Source: Blattamonas nauphoetae
Lineage: Eukaryota; Preaxostyla; Oxymonadida
Length of the DNA stretch: 64,000 nt
Assembly: GCA_033064195.1 (NCBI GenBank)
Contig: JARBJD010000027.1
Location: 186,001-250,000, forward strand
Direction: 5' to 3'
Shown: piece after piece, positions 9,203 to 47,200 of the stretch
Position numbering within the stretch: the stretch's first letter is position 1
How the letters are laid out: the number at the start of each line of letters is the position of its first letter
Position numbers and translations under genes: made by a program
Notes under the pieces: model-generated
Told to the model about the DNA's origin: nothing
Databases searched by the model: none
What the model saw: only the letters and a program-made list of their open reading frames with translations

Positions 9203-12200
9203 CTATCCACGCAGACCGTTGAAGTTTGCACCATAGAATTTCATCATTTGTTCTACCATGTCATGGGCGGTGTACGAGGCGACATACTTCTTCACGAAGA
9301 GGAACTCAGACGCGTCCTGCAATCCTTCCTCCACAAAGTTGGAGATTCTCCTTTGAATCGCGATGATATCTTCGATGCTGATCTCAGGGGAGTCGGAACG
9401 GTCGATGATTGTTTGGAAACACGAGACGGTTCCGCTGCAATCGTTGTCGAACAAAGCAGTCACAAAGCGAGAGAAGAACCCAGTTCTGCTGAAACTCCGA
9501 GCAATCATGCGCTTATCACACAATTTGCAGACATCGACGAATTGTTGCTTGCGTTCCTGACTTTCTCGCCAAGTGCTGTTGGGTGGGTGGATGAAGAATT
9601 GGCTAAGAAAATCGACGGAAGGAGCAATCAGTCGCTCAAACTGTGACTGACTCAGTCGAGAAGCGCAGTGGCGAATCTGCCATTGTCTTTGGACGATATC
9701 TTCAACAATGTGTTTGATGAATGCCTCTGAGAGATAATCAAGGGTGATCATTCGTTTCACAACTGCAAATTTTTCAAGATCAACATCGTCCCACTCGTTG
9801 AAAGTTTGTTCTCCCAACCATCGATTCGAGATGAGATGGTTGATTGGCGCTTGATCAAAATAGTCGATGGGGAGAGAGAGGAGGCATTCAAATGCGTGGA
9901 AGAACGGTTCTGTTGATCGGCCCGCTTGTCTGAACAAGTTGGGAAGATGGATGCGACTGAGCTGATGTTTGTGGAACGCGCAGATCCGAAGGTTGATGTC
10001 GTCATCCAAACACGAGTCACTTTCGAGCAGAGCAACAATTCTGTCGACGATGTCGATGATCTCGTCGTCGGTGAGATGACATATAAGTTGAGATGTGAGG
10101 ATGAAGGGTGGAGATGACAAAGCGAGGGCCGATGCATCTATTGCTTTCCTCGCATCCTCTCGATATGCTTTGGTCATGTTGTTTCTGAAATCATCCAGAT
10201 GCACGTCCTTGAGAAAGTTGAGAATCACATCATACCAACCATTGCCCAAAGCAAATGGATGGAGAGACAAATGGACGACATAATCCTGTGTGCGGGTAGA
10301 ACGCGCGGTATGTCTCGTCCAGTTCGCTTCGTTGTTGATCCGTGAATTCAGAACTCTTCGCGTTTTCAGAACGTCGAATCATCGCAAGACGATCACGCAA
10401 CATGATGAAGAGTTTTGTGTGGAATGGGATGCAGTCAGCAGTGAAAGGCAGTTTTGAGGGATCAACACCATTAACGAAGCTGGGGAACCAGCCACTCCAA
10501 ATGTGCTTTTCAAAAGTCATATCGTTCCGACAGTGTAAGAAGTGGCTGAATGAAGGGAGAAGGATGACGGCGTGGTGTGGTTGTGTCGGAGAGAATAGCC
10601 TCCAGAGTGACTTCGTGTCCAACGGCGACGAAGAGACGATTGTGTCTTTCATTTTGAGTCCAAATTTGTCGTCGGAATAGAAGTATAGTTCCAAAGGGGA
10701 GGGATGATGTCTCAGGAAGATCGCGAGTACCAGGGTTCCCAAATCGGAGAATTGGGTCCCCTCGCTCACTCGGCCAAGCAAATATAGAAATCCCTTCAAC
10801 CAGGGTTCGACCGTTTTCAGATCCATACAGTCTGAGTGGAGACAGAGTTCGACTTCAACAGTCGACGGAAAACCCAACATCGTAGCCAATTCTTTTTCAA
10901 TATCTTTTCGAATTTCTCCGAAAAAACGTGTAACTTCCGAAAAGACCGTACGAGGGCGATCATTTTGCACAATTTCACTGAATTGCTGCATTGTCGACAG
11001 AAGGATGATCCCGGAGAGAGTATCAGTGGGACAAACTGGAGCAGCAATGAGTGACCGCAAATATTCGAAGGATGTGTTGAAAATCGAATTGAGTTTTTCA
11101 GATCTGGCTGTTTCGGCGTCTGAACAATACGAGTAGGTTGTGAAACAGTGGCTGAGACCCACTGGCGAGGAAATGCTGAAAAATTGGCATGGGTGTAATA
11201 TGTCTGGTGGTTCTGAAATATGTCTGGTGCAACGAGTGTAGTGTGTCTGGTGGTGAATTTCCAAAGAACCATGAGAGGGATCAGACGATAGTGTTTATAT
11301 ATGAGTTGGATGAGATGACTAGAGATGATATTGAAGGTATAGAACCAAAAAATCTGCATGGAATGTCGAAATTCTTCCAATCAATGTTGTTCTGAAACAA
11401 TCACACTTTTTAGCACTTTATGGATGTTGATTTTGGATAATTATGTTTTCACGACAAACTAATCTTGAAAACGGACAAGAACCGAGATATAGTGATCTTT
11501 CATATACGACGAATTGATTGTTTTCAACGATTTCGACATTCGGTCTCCCAACTGTTGGAAGAACTATCCTCCAGTGACTGTTCTTTTTTTCTTTCGTACA
11601 TCAGAGATGGACATTCTGAGTGAAAAGTTGATGTTTTTCGAACTGTATCGTTCAGACGACCGAATTCTGGGAATATGGCACAACCAGATACAATACACTA
11701 CAACCAGATACAGTAAACCACCGCCAGATACACTACACTTCGCCAGACACACTACACCCATGCCGAAAAATTTGTCCAAAATCGATATGAGGTGACGGTG
11801 GAATTTGATTGTTGTTTCGTTCAATGGAATTTCATGTGGTTTTAGCCTTTCGAGAAGCTGAGTCAACAAACGTGTCACAGCCGTCGCAAAATGAGAATCA
11901 TCTGGAAATGATTTCAAAATGGAAGTGTCGAGGAAGGAGAGAGCAGCTGTTTGGAGCGTGTCTGACGGATAACAAATGATTTTGAGGAAAGTAGACGAAT
12001 GATTTGTGTTCAAATACACATCCTTTGACAATATGGTTTCTAATAGCTTGGAGTCGGATGATATGCGATGTTTGTTGTGAAGGGTCGCATATTCCAGGAA
12101 ACGGACAGCATGATTCATTTCGGTTTGCGACAGGGGTAAGTCAGTGTCAATCTGATCGAAGAGAGAGATACACCCTTGACGAAGAGAATCGGCCATGATC

Positions 12201-12653: not shown

Positions 12654-14602
12654 ATGTTTACACACTGCCGCTTCCTCTTTCTGATCATTGTCTGGACAAC
12701 CAACCATTCTCTTGATAATGTACTCTCACTTGCGGACATTCTTCCTTCGTCGAATCACGAAACTACCTCGGAGAATTTTACCTATATTCGTGCTCTTCAT
12801 CCTTCATATCACGCAGACAACATTGCATTGATCTCCACCGCGCTGAGGCTTATTGGAAGCCACTCGGAGCTTCATCACACATGGCAAGACAACTCGGCTA
12901 ATTCAATCTCCAAACACTCTTCAGATACCAACCAAATTTCAAGTTTGAACGATGCAATATGCATGCTGAAAATTCAGAACAGCACCATCTCACTTGAATC
13001 ATGGATTCTGAATGCCGAAGAGCCGAACACAATAGTTTCGCACGTATCATCGTCACATGTGGTGATTCGAGATTCAGCGATCTTATCAAACATCTATCAA
13101 TCACCGTTCGTAATTTTGTGGAGCAATACAGAACACGCATCAACCATTCAGATCATTGCCAGTTCGCACAACTCGAAACTGTCAGATCTCCTGCCACTTG
13201 TGGACATCGACAAACATCAAGACAGTCCCGATATTGGTCACTCTTCAGTCGAAACAAGTGAAGAACAGACCACAAAGCGGTCTTCTGAAAGACTTGAAGG
13301 CGACGAGATTTGTGTTGTGGGATCTTCCCTCAACCTCACCGATATTCACCTTCCGATCGGTTCCGGCCCTCTTTTTTCGTTTGGAATACGGAATGCCAGA
13401 TCTTCCAGTCTCACTCGTGCGGATATAAGAGTTCACACCACACTCACCTCGTCGTCACTTCTGAACGTGACCAGCCCCCAACAACCACTTTCTGAGAACC
13501 AGAATCGGTTCAGAAGTCTGACGGGCCAAGCAATTGTCGGGTGTTGTGTGTCGCGATGCTCGAATCATGACAGTGGGACAACAATGCTGGACGTGAATGC
13601 TGGAGGCGACCTTCACTGCCTGAACACTTCCTTCTCCTCCTGCATCCGCCAATCGAACACCCCTGAATCATATCCAAACAAGAACTACACACAAGGCCAG
13701 CGTTTCGCTTCCGCAAGTGAATCATTAATCACATCAGCCACTTTCACTTCCTGCACCTTTCGAGAGATGACAGGCTCGTACGGTGATAACACGGGGGGCT
13801 CTGCAATTTTCGTCAAAAGTGCCACATCTGTGACCATCACACAGTGCTCCCTCCACATCTGCAACGTCAGCGGGATCAACGATGATGGAGGATGCATTTT
13901 CTACTCGCCGCCTCTCTCCGGCGAAAATGCGTTGGTCATCAAGACGTCTTCGTTCACCGAATGCAAAGCGATCGGAGCAGTGTTCAATTATGGCGGGACT
14001 CTCTTCACGCGAGACGCGCTGCTTGTTTCGATTGATGAGTCGTTCTTCGAGAAGGGGGTTGCACAATACGGCTCAGCTCTGTTTTTCTATTACCAGACAA
14101 CAACGAAGATCTCCAACAGCTCGTTTGTGGACTGTGAATCACTTGTCCACTCGACTATCCGAATTAATAACTATGTCACCATCTCTTCGCTGGACTATCT
14201 TCTTCTCCGAAACTGTCAGGCGAATGGTAAGCCAGCTGCGAGTGATATCTACTTTGAGACGCTGCTGTATTCTGACGTCAAGTCAAAAATCAGCTTTTGC
14301 GATTCAACTTCTGGTTCTCCAAATATTTATTTTGGTTCGACGGAAACATCAGACGATACACTCATCCCGCAGATCTCGTCCACGCCGACAGTTGAAACAT
14401 GCGAAGTCACGTTCAGTGGAAATGTAGCGACTGTGACGGTGACAACGAAAGAAGTGATTGGAGGAGCGATGGGGATTCTGTTGGAGGGCTGCCTCGTGCC
14501 TCGTTTGGTGTTCGTTGTGTTCGTCACGGGTGGACAGAACTCGACGACAGGAAGCGCAACGGTGTCTTCTGGAGCGAATGGGATTCTTCCTTCAGCCACG
14601 TA
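12654..14602 (+). CDS. B2 5' part: signal peptide and first beta-helix
   Basis: It starts MFTHCRFLFLIIVWTTNHSL, a clear signal peptide, at the first ATG of the open frame, 130 bp from the divergent C2. It then carries beta-helix repeats with many Ser/Thr/Asn and Cys residues (GCCVSRCSNHDSGTTMLDV, SSCSFCSC-like turns). It matches the N-terminal half of B3 (compare GSVVASCSNHLYGTSIHSL). The natural frame enters the pogo-like element at 14603, which supplies a false stop at 14672. Confidence 0.75.
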
Positions 14603-16643
14603 TAGTCCGTCGAAAACCCGGACTTCGTCAAAAACCCGTCCTTTCATGGATTCTCAAGTTTTGTGGGGTTGATCAAACATTTCACTTTTTTTTCTCAATT
14701 CAACTTGTTTTTTTAATTCTGATTCAAATACCAGAGAATTTACTTAAATGAAGTGATAGTCGAAAAATCTGTTACAAAGAGTCATTCTGTGAAGTTATTT
14801 TTTCTGAAGTCGACTCGTCCAAAAAGTCACTGTCATCATCATGAAGGACATTGATTCGGCTCTTTGAAAGTGGAAAAACAGACGGAACAGACTCGATTCG
14901 TGTTGATTCTTGCCTTTTCTGTGGTTTTATTTCATCAAGGGTTAGTTGTTTCGATTTTTGAGGTCGTTCTGAAGATTGGATCACATTCAATTTGGTGTGT
15001 ATTTGAATCTTCGGAGTGAAACCACGTTTTCTTTGAGTGAGAGTTGTAAGAAGTCTTCCCTGATATTTCGGTTTTGTTTGAATAGCTGTGTGGTGAGAAG
15101 CGGGAGTTTCACAAGTCGTTTCAGAAGACAGTATGGATGAAGATGGTGTTTCTGATTCTGGTTTGGAAGGGACTAGTTGAATCAATTGAGCGAGTGAAAG
15201 TGGAGAAACCCCACATCGAGCGAATGATGCCTTGATGACACAGGGTTTCATTGACGTCGCCAAACAATCTGGCAGAATTCGTGCGAGTTCGGTTCTGTAA
15301 GCTGAAATTGAGTTTGATTCGGGTTGAATGTATTTTCGAGAGAGTTCTGACTTGAAACTTGCGAAACAATAGCCATCAAGAGGTTGTGAGATTGATGATG
15401 AGTGAGGTGGGAGGAAGAGAATTTGAATGTATGCCTTTTCAGCCATCTCTTGAAATTCAGGAAACATGTGAGATGATGCTCCATCGAGGAGAAGAAGTGC
15501 ATTCCGCATTTTTGGGACTCTTATCACGCTTTTCTGTGATTTCTGGAATGATGACATTTTCGACAACTTTTGGAAAAGAGTTGATGTCATGTATCCGCTT
15601 CCCTCGTAGAGTGAGATGATGTGATGAGCACTCAATCCAGAGAATTCGGCGACAGGCGTGTTGGTAGGATATAGCAGAATTGGTGAAAGTGAAGAACCAT
15701 CGGCGCAGATCGTACAAGCTAAGGTTGCGTTGACAACTCTTTTATTTTCGGAATTCGGCGGGACATTCTCACCGCGATACCACACAACCATCGACTGTTT
15801 ATCCTCATCGATTCTGAGAGAGGTTTCGTCAAAATTGAAAATCATGTCATCATCGATCTTCGCATCAATCACAACACTTTTGAGCAATTTGAACCATTCA
15901 GTCATGCTTTCGACAGTCGTAGCAGCAATTCTTTCGGGACTCAAAAAGATGGAAGGGATCGCTGGAGCACTGGATTCTGATCTATCCAGTTCGAAATTGT
16001 GGGTCGTTTCACTTCAGCCAATTTTTTTATTGGATCATTTCGACGTAAAACGATTTCTTTTGCCTAAATGCGATTTTCATGAAAAAAGAAGCAAACATGA
16101 GTCATAACTCGAGACACCTTAATCGGAACATTGCGCGAGATGTCTTCGAGGACTTTCATTTCAAGGTCAGTTTCTTCAGCTGAACTGAAAAAGCGAGGAC
16201 GACCATTGATTCCGACTTCTCGTCCATCCTTAAGAGCTCGCCTTCCGCGACGCAGTTGGGAAGGAGATCCGAGGTTGCTTTCTGCGAGGGTCTCCAGCTT
16301 GACGTGTTCGTCTTCGTACAATTTCAGTCCACGAGCAACTCGATTCGGAATCGAAAGGTATTCCTGTTTCACAATAATTTTTGAAACTTCCTCTGGACTG
16401 AGAAAATGAGGTTCTGAGGACGACATAAAAATGTTGTGGGTGTGATCATCTTTTCAATTTTGATTCAGTCTTTTTGTGAAAAAAATGCTCGATTCAAAAT
16501 GTTTTGAAGTGAGTAAACTGTTCAATAGACCAAAAATATCAGAGATGTCGATCATATTCAGAGTGAAGTGGAGAAATCGTGGGGAGCGATTTAACACCGG
16601 AAAACGACGGGTTTTTGACGAAGTCCGGGTTTTTGACGGACTA
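14603..16643. mobile_element. Pogo/Tc1-type DNA transposon inserted in B2
   Basis: Terminal inverted repeats of 38 bp (14603-14640 and 16606-16643, beginning TAGTCCGTC and differing at one position) are flanked by a TA duplication (14601-14602 and 16644-16645). It contains a DDE transposase on the minus strand. At 2041 bp it has the size of a full pogo-class element. Removing it joins ...SAT to YKHRSYSLRGD in frame. Confidence 0.9.
14772..16426 (-). CDS. DDE transposase, pogo/CENP-B type, one internal TAG
   Basis: The N-terminal part (16426-16064) has a helix-turn-helix region with GRPRFFSSAEE, as in CENP-B/pogo transposases. The catalytic part (15944-14772) has the triad in NFDET, LLLDGASSH and SQPLDG. 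In the numbering of the second open segment these are D39, D154 and D190, a DD35D spacing. Both parts are in one frame, separated by a single TAG at 16064-16066 (HENRI-stop-AKEIVLRRNDP). This is either a disabling stop or a sequencing error. The role is cut-and-paste transposition at TA sites. Confidence 0.85.
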
Positions 16644-16645
16644 TA

Positions 16646-17178
16646 CAAACATCGGTCATACTCACTCAGGGGAGACATCACCATTCAAGTGATCAGTGCC
16701 TCAGCCGTTTTGATCGACGCGAACACAGCAACAATCACACTCGAGGGAGTGTCACTTCAAACAGGGACGTATTCGATGCTCGTAAAGAATGGAGCTGACA
16801 TTTTCAACATCACACTGACTCGCTCCGACTCGACAACTCTGACAGGAACAGCACCTCTGCATCCATCGACTGCACATGGAAGACTGGACTGGTCCACACA
16901 ATATGAAATCACCAAAGTTGAACATGAGGATGGTGGAATCAAGTCAGCCATTCGACGGGTCGGGACAATCAAATTCACCACACCTGAATCGCCCCCTCGA
17001 ATCATATCCGCAGATTGCTCACTGGGAGGAGACCAACTGAAATCAGCTCTCGAAGTTCTAACGGGAGTGAAGTTGGGAGGAGGAAAGAACTTCAAAGTGA
17101 CAGTTCGGAAGATAAAAGAAGCGATACCAACTGGTGGTGACATTGTGTTGAGTGGAACACTCTCCAGTGTCTCGTCAT
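16646..17178 (+). CDS. B2 Ig-like segment between two transposons
   Basis: The frame reads YKHRSYSLRGDITIQV, then an Ig-like unit (TITLEGVSLQTGTYSMLV), then SPPRIISADCSLGGDQ and VKLGGGKNFKVTV. These are standard units of the B2/B3 repeat region. The frame runs into the Mutator-like element at 17179, after the 9-bp target TCTCGTCAT. Confidence 0.7.
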
Positions 17179-17810
17179 GGGTAGGTCTAGACTCAGATCT
17201 AGAAAAGTCTAGACGCAGATCTACAGATCCGTCTAGGCGCAGATCTGCAGGTCTACACGCAGATCCGTCTTTTTCTGGTTCATTTCGATTCTTGACCACT
17301 TTTTATTCAACAAATACCTAAATATCCACATCACTTCCTATTTTTTGGATTTACTTCTTCCTTTATGACATTCCTCCAATCGGGGTCCAAAGTTGATGAA
17401 GAGATCCTGGGTTGATCTCGTTCAGTTCCATCCAATTAAAGGTTCTTTCAATTCGAGACCCTTCCAGACATTCGTCCGGAACTTTGTCGTCGGATTCACG
17501 AACAGGTAGCCCTTCCGACTCTCCGTCTTCTCTACACCGCCACCATTTCATTTTCCACTGCCCAGCCGGAAGTATGCATTCCATTTGATCGTTTCACTTC
17601 TCTTCCCTGATATTCAAGTTCACCTTCCTTGATATCCGAGCCCACCCTCCACTATGTCCCGTCTGAAAGGTCAGTTCCATCTCCAATCGACAACCTCGAC
17701 GGACGGTGGTCACCCAGACATCGAATCAGCTCACAACTGAGAATTTCTCCTTGCAGAAAAGAAAAAGAATTGATGCAGAACGTCAAAAATAGCGAAAACA
17801 GTTCGACATT

Positions 17811-19108
17811 GTGAGAACAACATAGAAAGGCGACGAAGCGAAGGAAGCAAAAGGGAAGGGGATGAAGACCAAAAAATTGAGGTTACTGAGGACATCGAAG
17901 GAGAATATGAACAAGCAGAAAACGAGGAGGACGGAACACGAAGCATGGGAGAGAATGAGAAAGTTGAAGAAAACGAACATGAACAAACTGGCGAAATGGA
18001 AAAAGATGAAGAAAACGACAATGTTGAAGACAAACAGGAAGAGGCAGCTGAAGATGAGTGTGAACAAGACAATGGAGATGCCGATCGCAACCTACAAGAT
18101 ATTGTGCAATCAGAACGTGAAGACAGAGATGCAGAGGAACAGTAAGAAGAAATGGACGAAGATCCCGGTTCTTAACAGAATACCCCAGGGGAAGAAACCA
18201 AGAATGATGAAGTTGTCGAAAACAAACATCTCGACGATGAGGATCCTGACGCGACAGGTCCTGAAAAGAAGCAAGCTGAATCGAAACATGAATATTTGCA
18301 GGAGAAAGATGATTGAAAAGCTGATGAACTGGAAGATGTCAAATAACACCAAGTTAAAGACGAAGAAATCGAAGATGAAGTCAAAACGCACTCGTTTGGT
18401 GCACCAGCGCAAAAAAGAATCAAACGATGAAGAAAACGAGATGAAAGAAAATGAGCTAAACTATGAATTTGATGAGGAGTTTGCAAAGCAGCGGATGAAC
18501 AAGCAGAAGCCGACGATCAATTTGAAGACGATGAACAAGCGGAAGGGACAGAATTAGAAGCCGAAAAAAGAAGAAAGCAGCATCTATTCAGTCAAGTCAC
18601 TGGAGACTGTCAAAGCAGACTAATCGTCGCGGAGTTCGAAGTCCAATCGGACATCAAAAAGATCAAACTCCGAATCTCGGAAATCACGCTCTTCAGCAGA
18701 AAAATTGGATTTCCTAGAAGAAACAAACCTGAAGAACAAGATGGACAGGAGGAAGTGTTTGAAGACCAACAAGAATATGGAAAGGAGGAAGGAAACAGCT
18801 TCGATTCTCAGCCGGACAAGGAACCAGAGCATCACTCGGAAACAAATGACAATGACGACGAAATTGTGAAGAAAGAGCATTTTAGGGAGACAGAAGGTGG
18901 AGAAGAAGGATCGGTGCGTGAAACAGACATCGAATCAAAATCCGAAGCCACAAAGAAAGAATCAGGCGAAAAAGACGAAATCGAACAAGAAAACGGCAAA
19001 GAAGTTGTGATTCAAGAAGATGAAGAGGAAAAAGTGGAAGAAGGGGAGCGAGGTAAGAGCACAAACGATGTGATCGTTCCGTCCAAAACGCCCCGAATCA
19101 GGTTGTAG
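17811..19108 (+). other. Glu/Lys-rich low-complexity sequence inside the element
   Basis: Purine-rich sequence translates as runs of Glu, Lys, Asp, Asn and Met in several overlapping frames (for example 17862-18557 and 18755-19108). No frame has a fold signature, so the frames are not called as genes. It may be a captured charged or coiled-coil gene segment that has drifted. Confidence 0.4.
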
Positions 19109-19118
19109 ACGCCAAAAA

Positions 19119-19350
19119 CTACATCATCCTTCCCTTCAGACCGCTTGCACTCTCCTTCGCTTCGATGACTGTGTCTCCCAGAATATGATCGTCATGCAGC
19201 ATGACATTCCCGTCTCCCACAATCTTCACCAGCGAGTCCACCACACTTTTGCACGGGGTCTTCTCTCTTCCGCACAGAGTGATATCAAGTCCGTCATCCT
19301 TCACGAGAACATCTCGCGAAAGACCTCTCGGTCGTTTTGTTCTTATCGAA
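19119..19350 (-). pseudogene. Captured beta-helix-family module (fragment)
   Basis: On the minus strand the frame reads DVLVKDDGLDITLCGREKTPC, then VVDSLVKIVGDGNVMLHDDH and ILGDTVIEAKES. B3 has the equivalent at about 51290 (DVFVSRGGSSDASECGSSDF, then PC). This module normally follows the Ig-like repeats, and it is exactly the part missing from B2 at the foldback. There is no start or stop context, so it is a gene fragment carried by the Mutator-like element. Confidence 0.55.
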
Positions 19351-19390
19351 AAGCACGGTGTCGCTTCCCGTCGTACTCTCTCTTCCACAA

Positions 19391-19960
19391 GCACAACCAA
19401 TTCCAAACAATGCCGAACCATCTCCGCCGCCGCAACTCCCTCCACAGCAGAAGAAGCAGCGTGAGGTTCAATTCCAACCTCAATTCATTTCACAACAGCC
19501 AGCTGAGAAGATGCGACAGCCTGAGCGGCAGAAGAGTTCGTCTGGGACAGACACAACTCAACTGATCAGCGACGAGGAGCCAAACGGCCTCCTGAAAGGG
19601 CAATACATGGACGTCGAGTTGTGGGTATCCCTTTCTCTTCTCTCCTCACTCTTTCCAGCCGATGATGCGTGATCCTCTCGATGGGGGATTCACTGCACCT
19701 GCCTTCACCATCCCGTCGTCAGCTGGCCTCGTCGCCTTCCACTCCCTTCCTGACCAGATTCACGTGCTCTGTCAGGACGAGGATGGGATTGTCTCGATGT
19801 GGAATATCCTCACCGGAAAGTTGGAAGAAACACTCGGACCAGGCCGACTCGAAGACTTCGCAAAACGATTTCCGAAACCACTCGAGTTCCGACGGAAATG
19901 GTACACAGCCGAAACAAAAACGGGGGTATCGTCTTCTCATCTCGTTCATTCGCACTCTCC
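19391..19960 (+). pseudogene. Captured WDR48-like WD40 fragment with an intron
   Basis: The frame reads GLLKGQYMDVELW, then an apparent 34-nt intron (19625-19658, GTATCC...TTTCCAG), then PMMRDPLDGGFTAPAF, HVLCQDEDGIVSMWNILTGK and LEETLGPGRLEDF. The order of these blocks, followed by RRKWYTAETKTG, resembles the last WD repeat of WDR48/UAF1, the USP1/USP12 deubiquitinase activator (family forms: HVLT-D-GNV-LWDVL, KVEDLGKVDFE, WF-VDLKTG). This is recalled homology. Only about 150 residues are present, so it is a captured genomic fragment. Confidence 0.55.
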
Positions 19961-20422
19961 TCGCACTTCACTCCGTCGCAGCATTTGATGATCACTCCAA
20001 CATTCTCGTAAAGTAGGTGAGAACACCAGTAAGACACGAAGAAGAGTGATATGCACAATGATCAAACGACAAGGTCTAACGAAGCGGAAAGAGGAGCTAT
20101 CAGCCTGTCGGAACTGTGAAGACGATCCACACATTTCATCCCACATACTATTGAGTCAATCACATTTCTCGTTGTGATCATACCCCTTTTTCCATTCTTC
20201 AACTCGACCAGAATCCCGTCCCATCAATAACTCTCTTCTTTTGACCTGAAACTATTATTTCATCATTTCACATCATTTATTCTTCTCAATCTGTTCAATA
20301 AGGTGTTCTATCAACGAAACAAACGAGATCTGCGTGTAGACTTTCAGATCTGCGTCTAGACCGATCTGCAGATCTGCGTCTAGACTTTTCTAGATCTGAG
20401 CCTAGACCTACCCTCTCGTCAT

Positions 20423-20470
20423 CAACCACACACACCCACACTGTGCTGATCTACGGGATCTCGAACCCTC
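20423..20470 (+). CDS. B2 micro-segment between two elements
   Basis: These 48 bases encode the end of an Ig-like unit (TTHTHTVLIYGISNP). They are framed by the Mutator-like element's right target copy and the CTC target of the next element. They fit in frame with both neighbouring segments. Confidence 0.65.
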
Positions 20471-20956
20471 CAGTCATGGACAAAAGTTTTCGGTTTTCCT
20501 GTCCAGAAACACTGAGTGGTGAGATTTCGTTTTTGTTTCGTCGGACACTTCATCATCCTAAAAGAACATTGTGGCGAGAAAACCAGAGCGAACGGTTGTT
20601 TCGTAGTGGAGATACAGAGGAACGAAGAGTCTGAAAAAAAGTGACAAAAATATGTGCTCAACCACAATCGACCATTTTTCACACAGTGAGAGGTTGTGAA
20701 GAGATGAGATCATTTTTGCCGAAATAAACGAGATCCTCCGACTCTTCCGCAAGAAAAAGCGAACATTCGCAAAAAAACTTCGACAGTGGAAAGGTTCGCA
20801 TTTCTCACCCACAAACTGTAGACAAGTCTACCAACCTCGATGCGTGTCGATGTCATGTCACCTCCACACATGTGAAGTTTCAGCATCGAACTCCTTTCCC
20901 AATTCGTCACACCAGACTTTGAGCTTTTTCCTGCCGACCACTTTTGTCCATGACTG
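20471..20956. mobile_element. TIR element with 3-bp duplication in B2
   Basis: The ends CAGTCATGGACAAAAGT... and ...CTTTTGTCCATGACTG are inverted and flanked by CTC (20468-20470 and 20957-20959). It is 486 bp with no coding capacity. The same ends (CAGTCACGGACAAAAGT) and a 3-bp duplication occur at 32175-33063. A 3-bp duplication is known for CACTA and PIF/Harbinger elements, but the ends match neither exactly. Excision gives GISNPLLSFGTKY, the expected sequence. Confidence 0.8.
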
Positions 20957-20959
20957 CTC

Positions 20960-22087
20960 TCCTCTCATTCGGAACAAAGTATCTGATCACTGAGTTCGAA
21001 GTTTCAGGATCGTTTTTTATTTTGGATAAAGATGTCACTTTCTCCGTTCCTCCTGAACCTCCTCGAATCACAGGAGCCTCGTGTTCGCTGAATGGAAAGA
21101 AAGACAAGCTGATTGTTGAGCTGAGCGGAAGCGCTTTGTCGTCGTCTGGGCAGACTGCTGTGATGTCTGGATCATCAGCCATTGTCTCTTCGAATGGAGA
21201 GCTCTTCAACGTGTCGTCGACGAAATGTTTTGTGAACTTTTCGGTTGGGTTGAGTGAGAACAGCACACATGTTGTGTTCGGAGGGCGATACGAATTGCTG
21301 TCAGTTGGGTCGGGCCCGTCGTCGATTATTGTGACTTCTGGTCTCTTCATCGACGTCCCTCTGCCACCACAAATCACCTCAATCACCGCTCCAACTGAGA
21401 TCTCCACGTGGAATTTCGTTCTCAACTTCTCTGGCGAGCGTCTCCCATCCAACAAGGTCTATCTTGTCACATTGACACATGGCGACAGTTTCGCGGTTTT
21501 GTTCAGCTCCACAATTGCTGGCACATCAACACTCAACATCGGAAGAAGCGGAGAGCCAGAATACGACACGGAATACACCATCAGCTCTATCTTGCAAGGA
21601 GTGAGTGGAAAAGAAGACGAACATGTTGTCTTCTCGCCAGCTACATTCAGAACACCACTCGGCCCAACACTGTCTTCGGTTTCGTGTGATCTCGATTCCT
21701 CAAATCCAGATTTTGTGAAACTGACATTCACAACAGCACGAATACCTTCCGAAGTATTCACACTGACCGTCACAACGACTGAAACACCAATAGAAAGCAT
21801 TGAACTCCCCATCTCTCCTTCAGACCTCTCCGCTGGGTTCGTTTTTGTGGAAGTGTACAACAACTCAAACACACTGAAATATGGAACGACTTATTCGATT
21901 GAGAGAATGAACAGTTCATCAATTGTTGCTGTTGTCTCGGCCACTTCATTCTCCACTCCGCCAGAACCGATCCGAATCACATCTGTTGATTGCTCGCTGG
22001 GAGGAGACAAACATAAATCAGCAATTGTCGTTCTGTCAGGAGTGAAGTTGGGAGGAGGAAAGACCTTCACGGTGACAGTTGAGCGAG
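20960..22087 (+). CDS. B2 Ig-like repeat region
   Basis: This continuous frame has at least four Ig-like units. Each opens with a P-I-SASCSL or S-VSCDL motif and contains GxxLxxxxYxVT-like strands (SGERLPSNKVYLVTLTHG, SVSCDLDSSNPDFVKLTF, VLSGVKLGGGKTFTVTV). It matches the extracellular repeat region of B3. The frame is interrupted after VTVERV by the foldback repeat. Confidence 0.75.
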
Positions 22088-25082: not shown

Positions 25083-25090
25083 CAGGACAA

Positions 25091-33423: not shown

Positions 33424-33564
33424 ATTACGGGTTGACAGATGATTCGTCGGAATTGGTGAGATTACTGGTGCAGAAAAGAGAAAAAGGTGATTCCTTCGAT
33501 GAGATGATAATAATCAATGAAATGAAATGGACATTGTTCAATGAACGCATCATCGTGTCGTCTC

Positions 33565-36500
33565 CTAGTCCGCCCACCACTTCATGTTTGCTCCCAAGAA
33601 AAGCATCATTTGACTTGACCCGAATTGAGGGTCGCGAGTGACGACAGCCTTCTTCACGTACACATACTCCAACGCGTCCTGCCAGCCCTCCTCCAGACAG
33701 GGTGGGACTGTTTTCCGAATCTTGTTCCGATCGTCGATGGCCAGCTTTGGAAGCATTGAACGATCAACAATCATTCGGAAGAAAGATTCGCTGGCTTCGG
33801 TATTGTGGCTGAGAAGGCCGGACACAAAATGAGAGAAGAATCCATTTCTGTTGAGACACCGAGCGATCACACGCTGATCACACAAGATGCAGACATCGAT
33901 GATTAGATCGTCACGGTTCACTCTTGCCCAACTTCCGAAGTCACTTGGCTGGATGAGGTAACGGCTGAGAACATCGACAGACGGAGCAAGCAGTCGCTCC
34001 AACTGAGACGGACACAGTCGAGAAGCGCTGTGTCGGTGAATGTGTGGCATATTTCGGATGACCCAATAAAGAAGGATTGTGTTCTGTTCCTTCCTTTTGC
34101 ATGCGATGGAGAATCTGTTCCGGTCGATCATTCGCTTCGCAAATCCAACAGTCTCCAAATCAACTTCGTCCCACTTGCCGAATGTTGGTTGAAATGACAA
34201 CGGCCGAGACGGCAGGAGATAGTTGATCGATGATTGTTCAAGATAGTCGATGTGGAGAGAGAGGAGGCACTCCAATGCGTGCAAGTACAATTGTTGGACA
34301 ATTTTGAGAAATTGGAAAATGCCGGAAAGATAACTAAAAAAATACGAACCTTTCCTCCAGCTCCAAATCATGTCATGTCACAGTACGACCCTTCCATTCG
34401 TCGCGATGTTCAGAGTTCTCTGTGAGAACGACAGACCATCAGCTGTTGATCCCACGCCGGAATATGTGTTGGACTGTCAGACCTACCGAATTGGTCCCTC
34501 AATCAGATGTTTTTTGGATAGAGCGTGCTGATGACGAGATGGAGAAGAACGAAGTCGATGGAAGTACTCCGTTTTGTGGAAGGAAGTTGCTGTTGAGAGT
34601 GGACATCAATCGGCTTAAGAACGTGCAAGGGATCAACAAAGTTTCCAAATTATCAAAATTGTCCAACAACTGTATTGTTCAGTTGATCTTCCTGCTTTTC
34701 TGAACAAGTTGGGCAGATGGATGCGACTGAGCTGGTGTTTATGGAACGCGCAGATCCGAAGGATGGTGTCGTCATCCAAACACGAATCGCTGTCGAGCAG
34801 AGCAACAATTCTTTCGATGACATTGATGATCTCGTCGTTGGAGAGAAGACAGACAAGCTCAGATGTGAGGATGAAGGGTGGAGTGGATGACGAGAGGGCT
34901 GATGCATCCATTGCTTTCCTTGCATCCTCTCGATATGTCTTGTTCAAGCTGTGTCCGCAATCATGAAAATACCATGAGCCGAGTAAGTCCAGGATTCTGT
35001 CAGATTCAATATCGTCAAGTGCAAATGGATGGAGTGACAGATGCACAACATAATCTTTGGTGTGTGTGTAGAACGCATGGAGCGTCTCTTTCAGTTCGCT
35101 TTGAAACTCGTCACTCCATTCACGACTCATCAGAACTACAGAACGGAGAATTGTGCCGAAATAATTAGTCATCAGTTCGACGAGTTTTGTGTGGAATGGG
35201 ATGAAGTCAGCAGTGAATGGCAGTTTGGACGGATCAACCGCTTTGAGGAAGTTGGGAAACCAGCCACTCCAAATGTGCTTTTCGACAGTCACATCGCTAT
35301 AAAATGGCAAGAGATGACTGAGAGCAATGAGAATGATTGTGGCGTGGCGTGGTTGTGTCGGAGTGAAGAGTGCCCAGAGTGACTTCGTGTCCAATGGCGA
35401 CGACGATACGATTTGGTCGTACAGTTTGAGTCCAAATGTGTCGTCAGACCAGAAGAACAGTCGAAAAGCAGAGGGGCGATTCTTTATGAAGATCATGACC
35501 AGGCATGGGATTCGATCAGACCGATCTCACCATTTTTTGATCTCACCTCCTGATTTCTTTCAATTCGCCTCTAAAAGCTTTTCAAAACACAATTTTATCT
35601 CAAATTTCTCTATCAAAAGTGAAATGATGAATTGTAAAGTGAAGTCAAAAGAAGCCCATTGAAGCTGTTGGATCCTCTTGATTGGAGTTTGAACCACAAA
35701 AACAAAGAGGATAAACGTGAGTTAAGAGAAGGAAATACTCATCTGACACTTTTTATGTTGGAAATGAGTTCAGCTGGAAGGAGTGACGGACTGTTTCAAG
35801 TTTTGAACAGGTAAAGATGCGTCATCAAACCGTTTTTGCGACAAAAAGAGAGAAGGGAAGTCAATAGAGGTGAAGTGGAATCATTTTGGACATGAAATAT
35901 TCTAAAATCAGAGTGAGAAAACAAGAAAAGTTGGAGAAATAGATACGCTTAAATAGGAGACTGATCTCACCCAAAAATCTCATCGTGAGATCAAAAGATC
36001 TCACGATAAGCCTAAATGTACTCACGCCTCCCAACCCTGATCATGACGGCTAGAATCTCCAAATCGGAGAATTGCGTCTCCTCGCGCACCTGAGTGAGCA
36101 GATAGAGAAATCCTGACAACCAGGGTTCAGCGAGTTTCGGATACATCCAGTCAGAGTGGAGACAGAGTTCGACTTCATTGGTCGACGGAAAACCCAACAT
36201 CAAAGCCAATTTTTCCACAATATCTTTTCGGATTTCTCCGAAAAAACGTGTAACTTCCGGAAAGATTGCATGAGAGAGATTATTTTGCACAATTTCACGG
36301 AATTGCTGCATGGTTGACAGAAGTATGAAGCCAGAGTGAGTATCAGGAGAACAAACAGGAGCAGCAATGAGTGATCGCAAATATTCGAAGGATATTTTGA
36401 AAATCAATTCGAGTTTTTCAGATTGGAGGATTTCGGCGAGTGGAGGGTATCCTCTGATTTCGAGACAGCTTTTGATGTCCGCTGTTGAGGATATGCTGAA

Positions 36501-37574: not shown

Positions 37575-40500
37575 CTAGCCAGCCCACCACTTCATGTTTG
37601 CTCCCAAGAACAGCATCATCTGACTTGACCCGAATTGAGGACCGCGAGTGACGACAGCCTTCTTCACGTACACACACTCCAACGCGTCCTGCCAGCCTTC
37701 CTCCAGCAAGTTTGGGATGGTTCTTCGAATCGTGTTTCGATCGTCGACATCAATCTCGGGATATGTTTGACGATCAACAATCATTTTGAAGATAAAAGCA
37801 CATGCTTCGAAATTGAGGTCAAACAGAGCAGTCACAAAGCGAGAGAAGAACCCAGTTCGGTTGAGACACCGAGCAATCGTGCGCTGAGTGCATAATTTGC
37901 AGACATCCATGAACAGATCAGTACGGACATCTCTTTGACCTTGATTGAAGGTATGAGGAGGTTCAAAGACATTTGCATGTCCTCCTTCTTCCCCATCCAA
38001 AGTGTGTGGCTGGATGAAGAATGGTCCGAGAATGTCGACTGAAGGAGCAAATAAGCGCTCGAACTGTGGTTGACACAGTCGAGCAGCACTGTGGTGAATT
38101 TGTGGCATGATTCCGAAGACAAAGTAACGAAGTAGTTTGTTGAGTTTGTTCAGGTTGGAGGCGACAGAGAAGTGGTTCTGGCTGATCAGTCGCTTCACAA
38201 TTCCAACTGTCCTCAAATCAACATCGTCCCACTCGTCAGAAGATGGCTTGTCGATCCATCCAGTCGAGAGGAGATGGTTGATTGGTGATCGATCAAGATA
38301 GTCGATGGGGAGAGAGAGGAGGAACTCAAATGTGTGCAAGTATTGTTCAGTTGATCTGCCTGCTTTTCTGAACAAGTCGGGCAGATAGACGCGACTGAGC
38401 TGGAGTTTGTGGAACGCGCAGATCCGAAGGATGGTGTCGTCATCGAATGGAGAGTCGCTGTCGAGCAGAGCAACAATTCTGTCGACGATGTCGATGATCT
38501 CGTCGTTGGTGAGACGACAAACAAGTTGAGATGTGAGGATGAAGGGTGGAGAGGATGACGAGAGAGCCGATGCATCCATTGCTTCCCTCACTTCTTCTTG
38601 ATGTGCCTTGTTCAGTCTGTTTCCATAATCACGCAGGTAGGATTTGTCGAGAAAGTCCAGGATTCTGTCAGATTCAATATCGTCAAGTGCAAATGGATGG
38701 AGTGACAAATGGACGACATATTCCTTCGTGTGTGTGTAGAACGCACGATAGCTTTCGATCAGCTCGCTTCTAAGTTGGTCTGTCCACGTCGATGGTCTCG
38801 AGAATTGAAATTGTTCCATCTTTGCGAGATGGTCAGACAACAATTCGATGAGGTTATTGTGGAATGGGATGAATTCAACAGTGAAGGGTATAGTAGTAAA
38901 ATAACCCGGCGAGGGTAAAATAACCCGGGGTGAAAACCCCATTTTTTGGACACCACTTTCCGTCCATCCCATATTTCTCGGAACCAAAATTTTTTTGGGT
39001 CCCACTTTTTTTTCCACAATGTTTGTCTCAACTCCGAGTATCCATCGAGGTATAAATCGAACCTCCAAAATAGGATCCTGTGCCGGGGGTGCCTATTTCG
39101 GAACCATATTTTGGCCTATTTTTGACCCATTTTTGGCTCCTAAATAGGAGGTCCTTAACATTTAAGCTTAGAGGATCCGAACTTCACGACAACTTTTCTC
39201 CACGCCTGTTCAAAATTTTTCTTTCTCGTTTCATTTCTGGTTGTTTGGGATGTTTTTCTCTCGAAATCACAATTTTTTGAAAAATGAAAAATCCTGGGGG
39301 GACCTGGGTGGAAATTTATGGTCAAAAACTGATTTCCCTGTATAATAAGCTTAGGAGCCGGAAAACTTGTTTTGATCATATCTCCACAACCAGACATAGT
39401 TCCGACATGAAGTTTTCACCAATATGGATGTTTTGTTGGATACTAATTTTTTCTGAAATTTTTGAGAGTTTTCGAAGACCTCCTATTTTGGCGTTCTTGA
39501 TGGTTTTCGTTGTTTTCTCCGATTCAACCACAACTACTCTACCCCCAAGCACGATCCTAACCAATTTTAGCTTTTGGATTCGATTCTGATTGTGTCTGCA
39601 TCATTTTTACGAAATTTGGAGACGGGTGCATCATCCCATGTCAAATGACAGCTCTCCTTCTGCACCCAGGATAAAAACCGACAAAAGTATCTCAACTGCC
39701 GCAAGGGGATTTTTCTCAAAAATTTCAGAAAAAATTAGTATCCAACAAAACATCCATATTGGTGAAAACTTCATGTCGGAACTATGTCTGGTTGTGGAGA
39801 TATGATCAAAACAAGTTTTCCGGCTCCTAAGCTTATTATACAGGGAAATCAGTTTTTGACCATAAATTTCCACCCAGGTCCCCCCAGGATTTTTCATTTT
39901 TCAAAAAATTGTGATTTCGAGAGAAAAACATCCCAAACAACCAGAAATGAAACGAGAAAGAAAAATTTTGAACAGGCGTGGAGAAAAGTTGTCGTGAAGT
40001 TCGGATCCTCTAAGCTTAAATGTTAAGGACCTCCTATTTAGGAGCCAAAAATGGGTCAAAAATAGGCCAAAATATGGTTCCGAAATAGGCACCCCCGGCC
40101 CAGGATCCTATTTTGGAGGTTCGATTTATACCTCGATGGATACTCGGAGTTGAGACAAACATTGTGGAAAAAAAAGTGGGACCCAAAAAAATTTTGGTTC
40201 CGAGAAATATGGGATGGACGGAAAGTGGGGTCCAAAAAATGGGGTTTTCACCCCGGGTTATTTTACCCTCGCCGGGTTATTTTACTACTATAGTTTTGAG
40301 GGATCAACCGCGTTGACAAAGTTGGGGAACCAGTCATTCCAAATGTACTTCATGAAAGTCACGCTGTCCTCATGGTTCATGAATCTTCGGAATGCAGTGA
40401 GAATGATGGCAGCGTGCTGCGTTTGTGTCGGTGTAAAGAGTGTCCAGAGTGACTTCGCGTCCAAAGGTGACGAAGATACGATTGTGTCGTTTATTTTGAG

Positions 40501-41895: not shown

Positions 41896-41929
41896 TGGCT
41901 TTAGATCTACCCCATTAGTCCCTCCAAAT

Positions 41930-44196
41930 TAGGCTTGGCTGACCGGCACTGACCGGTCAGTTTTCACCGAAAAGTACTGACGGTCACTGACCGGAGGTAT
42001 TTCGGAACCCATACTTGGGAGTTACCATTTCTCCGAAGTGAATTCAACTTGAACTGAAAAGTGAATAAATGACGTGAGAACCAGTGTATTTTCTTCTTGA
42101 AATAAAATGCTGGCATTATTATCATATCAATCACGTGATTTCACTCTTATATTCAGCTATTGTGTTACCTGAACATCGAGCGAAAAATAGTTATGGGGAT
42201 GTGATCAGACCGATTGATCCTCTCTCACTGAAATGATTCTCGCGGCGAGTCTTCCCTTCTTTGAATGACTCTGTTGTCGGTTGGACACATCATTATAGCC
42301 AGTATTTTCCCCATCTTTGATATCATGTGACTTTTTCAATTACCCTCTATTCCCTTCATACAGCTATACTGTGGCTTGTTCCCGATTTCTATCTCTCCAT
42401 TCACACTTGCAATCATTGAATATTGATCAAGTGCCATCCATGTTGTGTTTTCGACATATCAAGTATGAGAAATGGAACTCGTTTGACGTCACTGAGTCAT
42501 GTCGATGCATTGGAGGAACCAGGTACTTCAATGACATAATTCGGGCAAACACTCCATCTTCTGAACACGTCCCTCGCCTGTCTGCTCTTCAGAAGCTCTT
42601 TGGGAGCGAAGAAGCAGCGTGTGAAATAGCATTGGACACGGCTGAGCAAACACAATTGTGAAACTTTTCGCACAAAGATATATGATGTGGAATGGAGATG
42701 AGAGGGAAAAGGATCGAGTATGTTCTCCTTTTCTTTATTTTTCCTGTCTAACTTTTCTCATTCTCAAAAGATTGCCCACAGCGTGGTAATGAATACAAAA
42801 CAAGGTTGTGCCACTCACCCACTCCACCGTATGACATGAAGTGTTCAGACTTGTTTTGGGGGAGTTCGACTGGCTGTCCACAAAACCTGGCAATTGAAGA
42901 TGACAACACGATCGCTCCAACCGCCCTGACTCGAGTGTGTTCAATTCCCGTCCTTTTCATTTCTGTTTTCTGTTCAGTCTGACGCGTCGTGCATTGTCTT
43001 TCGGTTTGAGCTGGCCGGATATCACGCCGACGACATCCAAGTGGCGATTGTCGACGATGGTTTGTCTGTCGAAGAAATGAAGAGAAATTGAACACAGTCG
43101 CGAGTGGTTTGTTCTCTTTCCTCTCTCAAGAGATTCTGCGCTGGATCTATCTCCAAGCAGGACGCACTCAACAACTGTTTGAACCAGATCTCGACACTCC
43201 CAATGAACTACTCTTTCCCACGGCATTTCTCCATTCTAGTCTCTTTTCCACCATTCAACTGCAAGCTGATGATCAGTTCTGAGTTAACCAACAAGATTTT
43301 GTTCATTTCTTTGAAAACAACGAGCGAATGAGATCCCATCATAAAAACAGGAAAAAAGACACAAAATCAGATCTTGAACACGAATTCTTGATATTAAAGT
43401 TTTCTAGAAGGTGAGGGTTGGCAATTGATTGAGAAGCGCAACATGGACAAAGACACGTTTGAATTCAGTGAAGACTGTGTCGATGTTCGCAATGAAGATG
43501 CAAGAAGATAGAGAGGGATGAGAGTAAAGAGAGAATAAACAGTAGACTGACAGAGTACAGAGCTTGGAGGGTGATCTTGATAAACGAGACGAAAGAGACT
43601 GGTTTAGGAAGGCACACACTTCTAAGGCTAATTCCGGATGGAATTACAGAGGATCTTCAGAAATTAGGCTGCGCAATCCGGGTTGTCCTTGTTACAAACA
43701 AAGATCACGGTGAAGAATTAGAATTCTGGAGTTTGGAGGGAAACCAGGTGGCGATTGAAGTCGGTGCTGCTCTGGCGATGGATGAGATAAAACCTGATGT
43801 CAGTTGGAAGATGGTGCAGAGGGATGGTCGGTTGCACACGAACAAATGAGCGTCCATGAATGACTGTGGAGAAGAAGGAGGGAGAATGTGAAAGTGGAGA
43901 AGAGATGACAATGAAAGAGAGAACCAATCGTGTCAAATGTATGAGGGATGTAGAAAAGAACAAAACTATGAGATAGTGATCCCAACTGGCACATGGACGG
44001 AGAAAATGAGATGTATCGCATAAATCAGAGAAGGGAGGCTGTGAAACGGTTTCAGAATGCAAATCCTTACAGAAATAGTTGCAAATTTACCGGCTTCTTA
44101 TGGATAACATGCAGTTTACAGATCTGGTGAGATCCGACCCTTTGAAGAATTCGTGACTGACACTGACCGGGAGTTTTGGCCGGTCAGCCAAGCCTA
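41930..44196. mobile_element. hAT-like element at the B3 start codon
   Basis: The ends TAGGCTTGGCTGACCGGC... and ...GGTCAGCCAAGCCTA are inverted and flanked by CTCCAAAT (8 bp; 41922-41929 and 44197-44204). TAGG ends and an 8-bp duplication fit hAT. It is 2267 bp, with gactgaccgg subterminal repeats and no transposase. Interior frames (42317-42661, 43088-43282 and 43571-43849, all +) are unrecognised and could be captured host exons. For example, 43571-43849 reads LIPDGITEDLQKLGCAIRVV, then EELEFWSLEGNQVAIEVGAA. Confidence 0.85.
43571..43849 (+). CDS. Unrecognised 92-aa frame inside the hAT-like element
   Basis: The frame has balanced composition (LIPDGITEDLQKLGCAIRVV, then SLEGNQVAIEVGAALAMDE) and looks more protein-like than neighbouring frames. 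I recognise no family. It is most likely a captured gene fragment, or chance. Confidence 0.25.
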   Translation: MILINETKETGLGRHTLLRLIPDGITEDLQKLGCAIRVVLVTNKDHGEELEFWSLEGNQVAIEVGAALAMDEIKPDVSWKMVQRDGRLHTNK

Positions 44197-44202
44197 CTCC
44201 AA

Positions 44203-47200
44203 ATGTCAAGTACAGTCTGTTTCAAAAAGATCTCCAACTGTTGCAAAAAAATGAGATTTGTTTCAAAAAGATGGATGATCGACTCGATACTCCTTCCCAT
44301 AATACTGCTTTTCCAGTCTGGACCTCTTTCCAAAACAGACTTTTCTATTTTTTTCGTGTGTATTGATTGACAGATAATGGCAGAAAAGATGGTCTGTCTT
44401 CTTTGTAGAGAAAGAAAAACACATTTTGTCGAGATTTTCTAACGTTTATTCTCTTTCATTTTCCTGGCTCTTATTATTCTTCTCTTTCTCAGACAGGCCT
44501 CGATCCTTCATCAAAATGAGAAATTATTCGGTGGTTTGCATTTTATTCACGGTTACATTCATATGATGTGAAATGATGCACTCCTCCCTTTCTCATCATC
44601 CTTGGCCATTTTTATCGATTTCTCACTCTTTTCTTGTCATTATTTTCCATAGTCTCACCTTCTAGGCGCCATTCCGAATGATCTTATAAATTTTGATCGA
44701 ACAGAAAGCTCACAATCAGCACACAATACTTGTTCTGACTCTCTATCTTCACAGGAATTTGATCATATTTTCACATGTTTTCTCTTTCATTCTCATACTT
44801 TTACGCAGATATTTTAACTCATTCTTGCGAACTGATCAGTTATCCAAGACTTGCCTTCTCGAGTTCTCCAAGTCGTCTCCACACTGCCAATATCCATCTT
44901 TGAAGTCCATGTTACTTTCCTACGCGTCCACTCTCTTCGATTCTTCTCTGCCCTCTTTTTCATCGATGTTTCACTCCCTTTTTATGTCTCAACTGCCGCT
45001 TCGCAAAACTCTTTGTCAGATCTTTTGATTAAAATCTGTAATCGATGAAAACTTGACCTTTTCGTCACATCGATACCTCCCTGCCCTCTATTTTCTCATC
45101 AATAGACCAAGTGACGTTCATACGGTGACACTTGGACTCTTCAACACTATTCGTCAGATCTCTCCTCATCATAATTTTTTCACATCGATCAAATCACTTC
45201 ATCACAATACAGACGCTCCATTCTACTTTGGATCCATTGTGTTTTCAATTCTGTCAAGAGGAAAAAGAGTTGAATTTAGAAGTCGTGGAGCGACAAGAGC
45301 GACTTAAATAGGGAGTGAAACATCGATGAAAAAGAGGGCAGAGAAGAATCGAAGAGAGTGGACGCGTAGGAAAGTAACATGGACTTCAAAGATGGATATT
45401 GGCAGTGTGGAGACGACTTGGAGAACTCGAGAAGGCAAGTCTTGGATAACTGATCAGTTCGCAAGAATGAGTTAAAATATCTGCGTAAAAGTATGAGAAT
45501 GAAAGAGAAAACATGTGAAAATATGATCAAATTCCTGTGAAGATAGAGAGTCAGAACAAGTATTGTGTGCTGATTGTGAGCTTTCTGTTCGATCAAAATT
45601 TATAAGATCATTCGGAATGGCGCCTAGAAGGTGAGACTATGGAAAATAATGACAAGAAAAGAGTGAGAAATCGATAAAAATGGCCAAGTGATGATGAGAA
45701 AGGGAGGAGTGCATCATTTCACATCATATGAATGTAACCGTGAATAAAATGCAAACCACCGAATAATTTCTCATTTTGATGAAGGATCGAGGCCTGTCTG
45801 AGAAAGAGAAGAATAATAAGAGCCAGGAAAATGAAAGAGAATAAACGTTAGAAAATCTCGACAAAATGTGTTTTTCTTTCTCTACAAAGAAGACAGACCA
45901 TCTTTTCTGCCATTATCTGTCAATCAATACACACGAAAAAAATAGAAAAGTCTGTTTTGGAAAGAGGTCCAGACTGGAAAAGCAGTATTATGGGAAGGAG
46001 TATCGAGTCGATCATCCATCTTTTTGAAACAAATCTCATTTTTTTGCAACAGTTGGAGATCTTTTTGAAACAGACTGTACTCACTTGATTGTTAACATCT
46101 TCATATTACTAATTTGCATACACCCTCTTGCGTCCGTTCCTCATGATAACTCCGACGATCACTCATTCGCCAAAATGCTGTCAATTCATCGATTCTTACA
46201 GAAAGACAAAGAATCGAGCGAAGCTACAAAAGTTCAAGTTCAATCTGGTCATTACCACAGTGCAAATTACGAAATGTCATCTCTGATAATTAATCTTGAA
46301 GGACATTCGACAACCATAGTTCCTTCGTGGACATCAGTCACTGCTGTTCAACTCGATCTCAACCGAACTAATGAAAGAACCAATGATGATGATTCCCTCA
46401 ATCTTCCCCTCTTCCTCATGCGAAATAGTACGATTGCGTTCTCTTTCTTCCATTTTGATTGTGGAGGAGACGGAGCCCTCGTCGCAACAATCACGTCCTC
46501 GTCTCTCGAAGTTCGCTTTTGCCACATCACATCGAACGTTCGGAGTTCCCCATTCGCAGTTGAAGATGTCCATCACGATTCCGGGACACATATCGCCATA
46601 CTTCACTGCACCCACGACTCGACAACTCCGTCGTGCCTCCTTCCTCTCGTGAACGTTTCCCACTCCTCACATACTGCTGACCGCACTCACACCAACACGG
46701 ACAACGATAATTCCAGCACCCCCTTCCCACCCTCCCTCATCGTCTCTGGCATCGGCCTCGCTCTTTCGAACGCCCACTTTGGACTTGGAACTGGCCCCTT
46801 GCTCGGCTCGCTCGCATCCGAAACAGATCCAACTGCCATCACACCGCATGTCCGCACCTCGCTAGTCACATCCACGCTCCGAAATGTATCGTCGTCACGA
46901 CCAGAACAAGAAATACCCTTCTGCCCCTCGCTGTCTCAATCGGTGGTTGGGAGTGTTGTTGCATCGTGTTCGAACCATCTTTACGGAACATCGATCCACT
47001 CACTGGATGTGGGCGGAAGTCTTCTGAGTGTGAACTCGTCGTTCATCTCATGCCGCGTCGATCCCACAAACGAGAACAAGCCCTTCTCAACACGTTCGGA
47101 ACTCTCAGCTGCATATTCTAAAGTCTCCTTCAAGCTCTGCACGTTCAAGGGATGCTCGACAACACAAAATGGAGGAGCGATCATTTCGCTAAATCAGGCC

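Follow-up and report, generated by a model that had tools for sequence, protein, structure and literature searches.

How can genes that are interrupted again and again by mobile DNA still read as though nothing had happened to them? The question is posed by a stretch of the genome of the cockroach-gut oxymonad Blattamonas nauphoetae, the 64,000-nucleotide window C190:186001-250000, in which an earlier note, made from the letters alone, had described thirteen inverted-repeat elements at 11 to 46 kb. Deleting such an element together with one copy of its target-site duplication (TSD), according to that note, leaves a perfect host reading frame, and this was put down either to a burst of very young insertions or to precise removal before expression. 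We compared the window with the genome to which it belongs (88.3 Mb and 837 contigs as searched; 88.5 Mb, 879 contigs and G+C 44.96%, from Nanopore and Illumina data, in the assembly description of PMC10703272). We conclude, with high confidence, that a recent burst of many families of cut-and-paste DNA transposons and miniature inverted-repeat transposable elements (MITEs), from several superfamilies, struck redundant gene families here.

Sequence reading and scripted boundary tests recovered all thirteen elements, between 11,186 and 46,077 (11.2-46.1 kb). They are listed here without a strand.

E1, 11186..11764: 579 bp; ends GGCATGGGTGTA; 8-bp TSD GAAAAATT; Merlin-like ends; in gene C2
E2, 14603..16643: 2041 bp; TA TSD; minus-strand frame for a DDE_1 transposase; in gene A2
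E3, 17179..20413: 3235 bp; 9-bp TSD TCTCGTCAT; Mutator-like by TSD length; in A2
E4, 20471..20956: 486 bp; ends CAGTCATGGACAAAAG; 3-bp TSD CTC; in A2
E5, 22081..22657: 577-bp hairpin; flanks AGTT/ACTT against a 4-bp family TSD; in A2
E6, 22875..25082: 2208 bp; 8-bp TSD CAGGACAA; in A2
E7, 31090..31655: 566 bp; 8-bp TSD GAAGATTG; Merlin-like ends; in gene D
E8, 32175..33063: 889-bp hairpin; ends CAGTCACGGACAAAAG; 3-bp TSD AGT; in gene D
E9, 34288..34672: 385 bp; TA TSD; in gene C3
E10, 35500..36039: 540 bp; ends CAGG; 8-bp TSD ATCATGAC; hAT-like; in C3
E11, 38891..40290: 1400 bp; hairpin, each arm about 579 bp; TA TSD; in gene C4
E12, 41930..44196: 2267 bp; 8-bp TSD CTCCAAAT, overlapping the start codon of gene B3
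E13, 44213..46077: 1865-bp near-palindrome; TA TSD; in B3, at codons 3-4

Perfect TSDs flank twelve of the thirteen, in the lengths given by the earlier note: TA four times (E2, E9, E11 and E13), 3 bp twice (E4 and E8), 8 bp five times (E1, E6, E7, E10 and E12) and 9 bp once (E3). The flanks of E2 and E11 read TATA, which leaves their TA boundary ambiguous by 2 bp. With several TSD lengths, and TA in only four of the thirteen, there is indeed no single target consensus. Terminal inverted repeats (TIRs) are present in all thirteen. They form long, nearly perfect arms in E5, E8, E11 (arms 100% identical by the repeat finder) and E13, and are short in E1, E4, E6 (score 9), E7, E9, E10 (also imperfect) and E12. 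No similarity among the thirteen elements was found by blastn. Spliceosomal introns ending exactly at the element ends are ruled out by sequence reading: the boundaries are those of a TIR plus a TSD, not GT..AG.

That different superfamilies are involved also holds, by ends and TSD length: Tc1/mariner-pogo, hAT, Mutator-like and Merlin-like. One frame of E2 (window:14775-15944, minus strand) matches the Pfam family DDE_1 (E 2.2e-13), and no Pfam match was obtained for a second E2 piece or for six frames from E3, E6 and E12, three of them from E3. Beyond DDE_1, the labels depend on ends and TSD lengths; E4 and E8 (3-bp TSD) and E5 (4-bp TSD) are left unplaced. The ends and 8-bp TSDs of E1 and E7 agree with the 5'-GG termini and TSDs of 8-9 bp attributed to Merlin in the account given by PMC8101967; Merlin is also characterised by an IS1595-type transposase, which was sought in E1 and E7 among open frames only. 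The same account places Merlin, among metamonads, only in Preaxostyla.

The genes that the elements interrupt are the following; 'joined' denotes the sequence that results when each element and one TSD copy are deleted.

C2, 9203..12523, minus strand: split by E1; further frameshift near 10.3 kb
A2, 12654..25594, plus strand: split by E2, E3, E4, E5 and E6; joined frame of 1455 aa, non-contiguous at E5
D, 30835..33513, minus strand: split by E7 and E8; open frame after joining, 404 codons; limits approximate
C3, 33571..37292, minus strand: split by E9 and E10; joined 930 aa
C4, 37578..41895, minus strand: split by E11; joined 972 aa
B3, 41928..52513, plus strand: start region split by E12 and E13; joined 2147 aa

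Frames run on without a break across eleven junctions (E1-E4, E6-E11 and E13), and the TSD of E12 lies over the start codon of B3, as the earlier note had counted them. Protein alignments are free of gaps within 25 residues of the join at E1 (aligned with the relative P0005), E3, E4, E9, E10 and E11. At E7 and E8 they are gapless against one of two relatives, with three gap positions against the other, and the joins of E2 and E6 sit in stretches of low identity with two to five gap positions nearby. The frames joined at the twelve TSD-type sites are paralogue-like, and uninterrupted relatives span all of these joins. Five of the six host genes have no further stop or frameshift, the E5 join of A2 aside; joined, A2, B3, C3, C4 and D amount to 17.6 kb of coding sequence with no such lesion when E5 is treated as an insert. 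The assertion that removal leaves a perfect frame is correct for the twelve TSD-type joins; C2 keeps its separate frameshift. Likewise, C3, C4 and B3 become whole genes as had been said, and A2, being non-contiguous at E5, does not. Joined C3 and C4 are about 56% identical, with a ratio of nonsynonymous to synonymous substitution (dN/dS) of 0.52. Adjoining the interrupted members of the C family lies a shortened one, C1 (window 7478-8920, minus strand; 481 aa), annotated as BLNAU_5246, a protein that one window gene matches at 99.8%; no element was found in C1.

E5 is the odd one out. Its flanks, AGTT and ACTT, do not match, whereas a matching 4-bp TSD flanks each of the seven further E5 copies that were tested. 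The part of A2 to the left of E5 aligns with B3 up to about residue 1550 and the part to the right with residues 1909-2136; a relative (L061) continues differently from A2 at this point. Because the flanks are mismatched and the halves of A2 correspond to separate regions of B3, the join at E5 would be a scar of deletion or recombination later than the insertion. Compared with its family (L014-L020, L029), E5 has 38 substitutions, 24 of which form 12 complementary pairs across the hairpin arms; of the rest, counted by hand, 11 are in the loop and 3 unpaired in the arms. The two arms appear to evolve in concert, as though by copying of one from the other. We dropped the dating of E5 from its 93% identity to the family, since these paired changes make that figure unusable for age.

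A TSD reproduces its target letter for letter. Deleting an element with one copy therefore recreates the sequence as it was before insertion, and a gene that was whole then will read as whole now. In the mechanism that we favour, the transposase would make staggered cuts at the target, repair of the gaps would leave the TSD, and the MITEs would be internally deleted or hairpin relatives of the DNA transposons. In-frame joining is then expected of any TSD-type insertion into a whole gene, and is not evidence for removal. The same families bear this out elsewhere in the genome. We joined the flanks at 47 sites (28 of E9, including the one in the window, 7 of E5, 2 of E11 and 10 of E8), leaving out L067, which has no ends, and L071, with an unequal TSD. 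Where at least 120 codons are open on both sides, the join is in frame in 8 of 8 cases, of which 7 lie elsewhere than in the window; a minimum of 100 codons gives 8 of 9, and one of 60 gives 15 of 20. In-frame joining is the rule, in short, when these families enter a real gene.

Nor is a preference for genes seen. The coding bias of the earlier note disappears once local coding density is taken into account: coding sequence takes up 14,923 of the 17,797 host bases in the interval (84%), and the probability of at least 12 coding insertions among 13 is 0.36. These gene limits were set by hand and somewhat understate D. Flank controls reject a coding preference for E9 as well. Of 30 E9 loci fetched, 28 could be bounded; 13 of these fall in open frames 200 codons long or longer, to be compared with 46% for random positions in the flanks. 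At thresholds of 100, 150, 200, 300 and 400 codons the counts are 22, 19, 13, 9 and 6 of 28 and the control fractions 0.78, 0.61, 0.46, 0.36 and 0.25. With a stricter end pattern, TA is present on both sides in 26 of 27 other E9 copies. All ten other E8 sites have a perfect 3-bp TSD; judged by eye, two are clearly in D-like or related frames, one is perhaps in a kinase-like frame and seven are without an evident gene.

Uninterrupted counterparts of the window's own sites were sought by probing the genome with joined flanks, the best 40 of 466 and the best 40 of 165 candidates being scored. Among these, uninterrupted sequence spans all twelve TSD-type joins, at 75-93% identity (E1 81%, E2 87%, E3/E4 88%, E6 82%, E7 77%, E8 89%, E9 up to 93%, E10 75%, E11 92% and E12/E13 90%), and none exceeds 93% at any join. 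Since all differ by at least 7%, these relatives are, to judge from their divergence, other gene copies rather than alleles. A view of three joins at once is given by a segment of another contig (L093, C468:283700-289699), which aligns to the joined window over 4,581 bp at 85.8%, with no gaps at the joins of E11, E12 and E13. Its C4-like gene (dN/dS 0.50 against C4) contains one in-frame stop, and its B3-like frame ends after about 515 codons. These genes are broken even though they are free of the elements, so members of these families decay anyway.

The insertions themselves appear to be recent. Dispersed copies exist for all eight families searched (E5 and E7-E13), and several are nearly identical to those in the window: nine other copies of E8 score 1599 of 1604 bits, two of E10 the same bits as the query itself, one of E12 4068 of 4089 and one of E13 3345 of 3364, and the match for the E11 arms is 1036 of 1045. 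This agrees with the state of the hosts. On the assumption of 0.10-0.15 indels for each substitution, with 80% of the indels shifting the frame, and with stops as 4.2% of substitutions (the value in C3), the 17.6 kb of undamaged joined coding sequence bounds neutral decay since the insertions at about 0.10-0.14% per site. Near-identical copies, perfect TSDs, undamaged hosts and uninterrupted relatives together argue for the burst of very young insertions that the earlier note had offered as one possibility. The first look at the genome with the E11 arm gave 468 candidates, so that family is probably abundant. We also considered shared insertions in duplicated loci (L051/L067) as a test of age, and rejected it: L067 looks like an unpolished redundant copy. 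Its contig, C477, differs from C474, that of L051, by 42 gap openings and 19 mismatches in 3 kb, and assembly noise of this kind can therefore mimic pseudogenes.

Insertions into such genes would be tolerated because other members of the family are available. The hosts that we could recognise mostly belong to redundant gene families. Those of E9, identified by eye, are mainly repeat-rich and A-like, with one C-like (the C3 of the window) and three D-like. E9 also interrupts the 5' part of one conserved enzyme gene, an iron-containing alcohol dehydrogenase (Pfam), for which uninterrupted relatives without stops exist at 84% and 78% over the whole query, and more distant ones besides. In the public protein set searched, neither joined C3 nor joined C4 is present: joined C4 has 57 matches, the best at 67%, and joined C3, at about 56% to C4, would have been in range and is not listed. 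As evidence on expression this absence is weak, since annotation may reject such joins and joined A2 and B3 could be missed for their length. A protein search with the 535-aa frame at 40291-41895 gave 68 matches to B. nauphoetae proteins, two without a name, the best named one at 77% over 36% of the query.

How does this compare with other accounts of the locus? The insertions could be heterozygous or polymorphic, with intact alleles alongside; this would add to a recent burst rather than replace it, and we regard it as a minority prospect, though one to be taken seriously. Near-identical copies, in implying recent insertion, speak for it, and at least one locus does appear to occur redundantly in the assembly, in a poorly polished form (C477, beside C474); the 93% ceiling among the scored candidates speaks against it. 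Programmed DNA elimination, in which the expressed copy of the genome would be precisely cleared as ciliates clear their internal eliminated sequences (IESs), is very hard to credit. It would account for the exact in-frame joins, for five whole genes with up to five inserts each, and for the divergence of E9 and E7, which is greater than their intact hosts suggest; and MITEs can become IESs in Blepharisma, as PMC9942856 describes. Against this, no exactly joined form of at least 98% identity was seen in the assembly among the scored candidates, and the uninterrupted relatives are instead other gene copies. TSDs of several lengths, with E5 unmatched, share no boundary consensus, and many insertions of the same families lie outside genes. 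Separate germline and somatic nuclei, moreover, are not known in oxymonads.

Excision from messenger RNA by way of the inverted repeats, the elements staying in the DNA, is just as hard to credit. The long, nearly perfect arms of E5, E8, E11 and E13 would suit it, and there is a precedent in 'SOS splicing', which the review PMC13247085 describes as cutting transposons from metazoan mRNA, with RTCB performing the ligation. That description concerns animals, however, seven of the thirteen elements (E1, E4, E6, E7, E9, E10 and E12) have only short end repeats, and the public proteins, within the limits of annotation given above, include no joined C3 or C4. Taken more broadly, the proposal that exonic DNA transposons of several superfamilies are tolerated through exact removal from DNA or from mRNA, with E9 in C3 and E7 in D relatively old, fares a shade better and is still highly improbable. 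Precise removal before expression, the second possibility of the earlier note, finds no positive support, given that in-frame joins are general, that many insertions are non-genic, that most recognised hosts are redundant and that no joined C3 or C4 protein was found in the public set searched. The living cell may remove the elements exactly, but nothing seen here supports it, and a recent burst would presumably involve no removal of the elements in the cell at all.

Some observations do weigh against a simple recent burst. E9 is the most diverged of 29 aligned copies: its 385 bp carry five changes found in no other, the scored copies reach 97% at most, and the nearest other copy of E7 is at 93%, with none higher among 37 of 37 candidates scored. 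Had these differences accumulated since insertion, one would expect decay in C3 and D, but both are whole. A simple insertion model expects older copies to lie in broken frames. Among 29 copies of E9, divergence, taken as the terminal branch, shows no relation to host-frame length (Spearman -0.03, p 0.86), in a test whose power is low because most copies have no private change. For cut-and-paste elements, on the other hand, copy divergence is only an upper bound on the age of an insertion, because old copies can transpose and the sources they came from can disappear. E9 and E7 are the sole hint of removal, and the best surviving hint against the ordinary interpretation. Clustering is a further difficulty. 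The thirteen insertions are concentrated in about 18 kb of host DNA, and a recent burst gives no account of this. No member of the thirteen families was found by blastn in the rest of the window (1-11 and 46-64 kb) or in the contig stretches L009, L011 and L012. A stricter inverted-repeat scan came up empty in the remaining 28.7 kb of the window and in L093, and found one element in 26 kb of neighbouring contig (L012, the first 6 kb of L009, and L011); it recovers only 5 of the 13, so the estimate of clustering is rough. Target preference, chromatin or tolerance may be behind the concentration.

Among known systems, the elements most resemble class II DNA transposons and MITEs, with their TIRs, TSD length fixed by family, dispersed copies in different flanks and one DDE_1 transposase, and depart from them in that most superfamily placements here are from ends and TSD length only. 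With the IESs of Paramecium and Blepharisma, mobile and MITE-derived ones among them, as presented in PMC8354472 and PMC9942856, they have in common that transposon-derived inserts lie in coding exons and that their removal restores the frame; they differ in their several TSD lengths, in the lack of coding enrichment and in that no excised form was seen among the scored candidates. SOS splicing, too, would act on exonic inverted-repeat elements, and is known from a review of metazoans (PMC13247085), whereas the evidence here comes from DNA. In the repeat survey of PMC8767320 on another oxymonad species, Monocercomonoides exilis, classified DNA transposons make up 4.5% of the assembly, and expanded kinase genes overlap with many repeats that are unclassified. 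Among the papers listed in our search of one library, on B. nauphoetae and on transposons of oxymonads and Preaxostyla, no description of the thirteen elements turned up, and the word stem 'transpos' is absent from the main text of the genome paper (PMC10703272).

The window thus supplies coordinates for about a dozen apparently young transposon and MITE families in an amitochondriate protist, and shows members of large B. nauphoetae gene families broken by mobile DNA. Should exact removal ever be demonstrated at these sites, it would reveal a novel mode of coexistence with transposons beyond ciliates and animals, for which the thirteen sites are ready-made tests. Two smaller observations complete the picture. 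A TA-flanked inverted-repeat element of about 1.45 kb lies in non-coding DNA just outside the window (L009:2251-3704, C190:182251-183704). And copies of E9 and E10 lie less than 1 kb apart both in C3 (34288-36039) and at an apparently unrelated site on another contig, C490 (L046).

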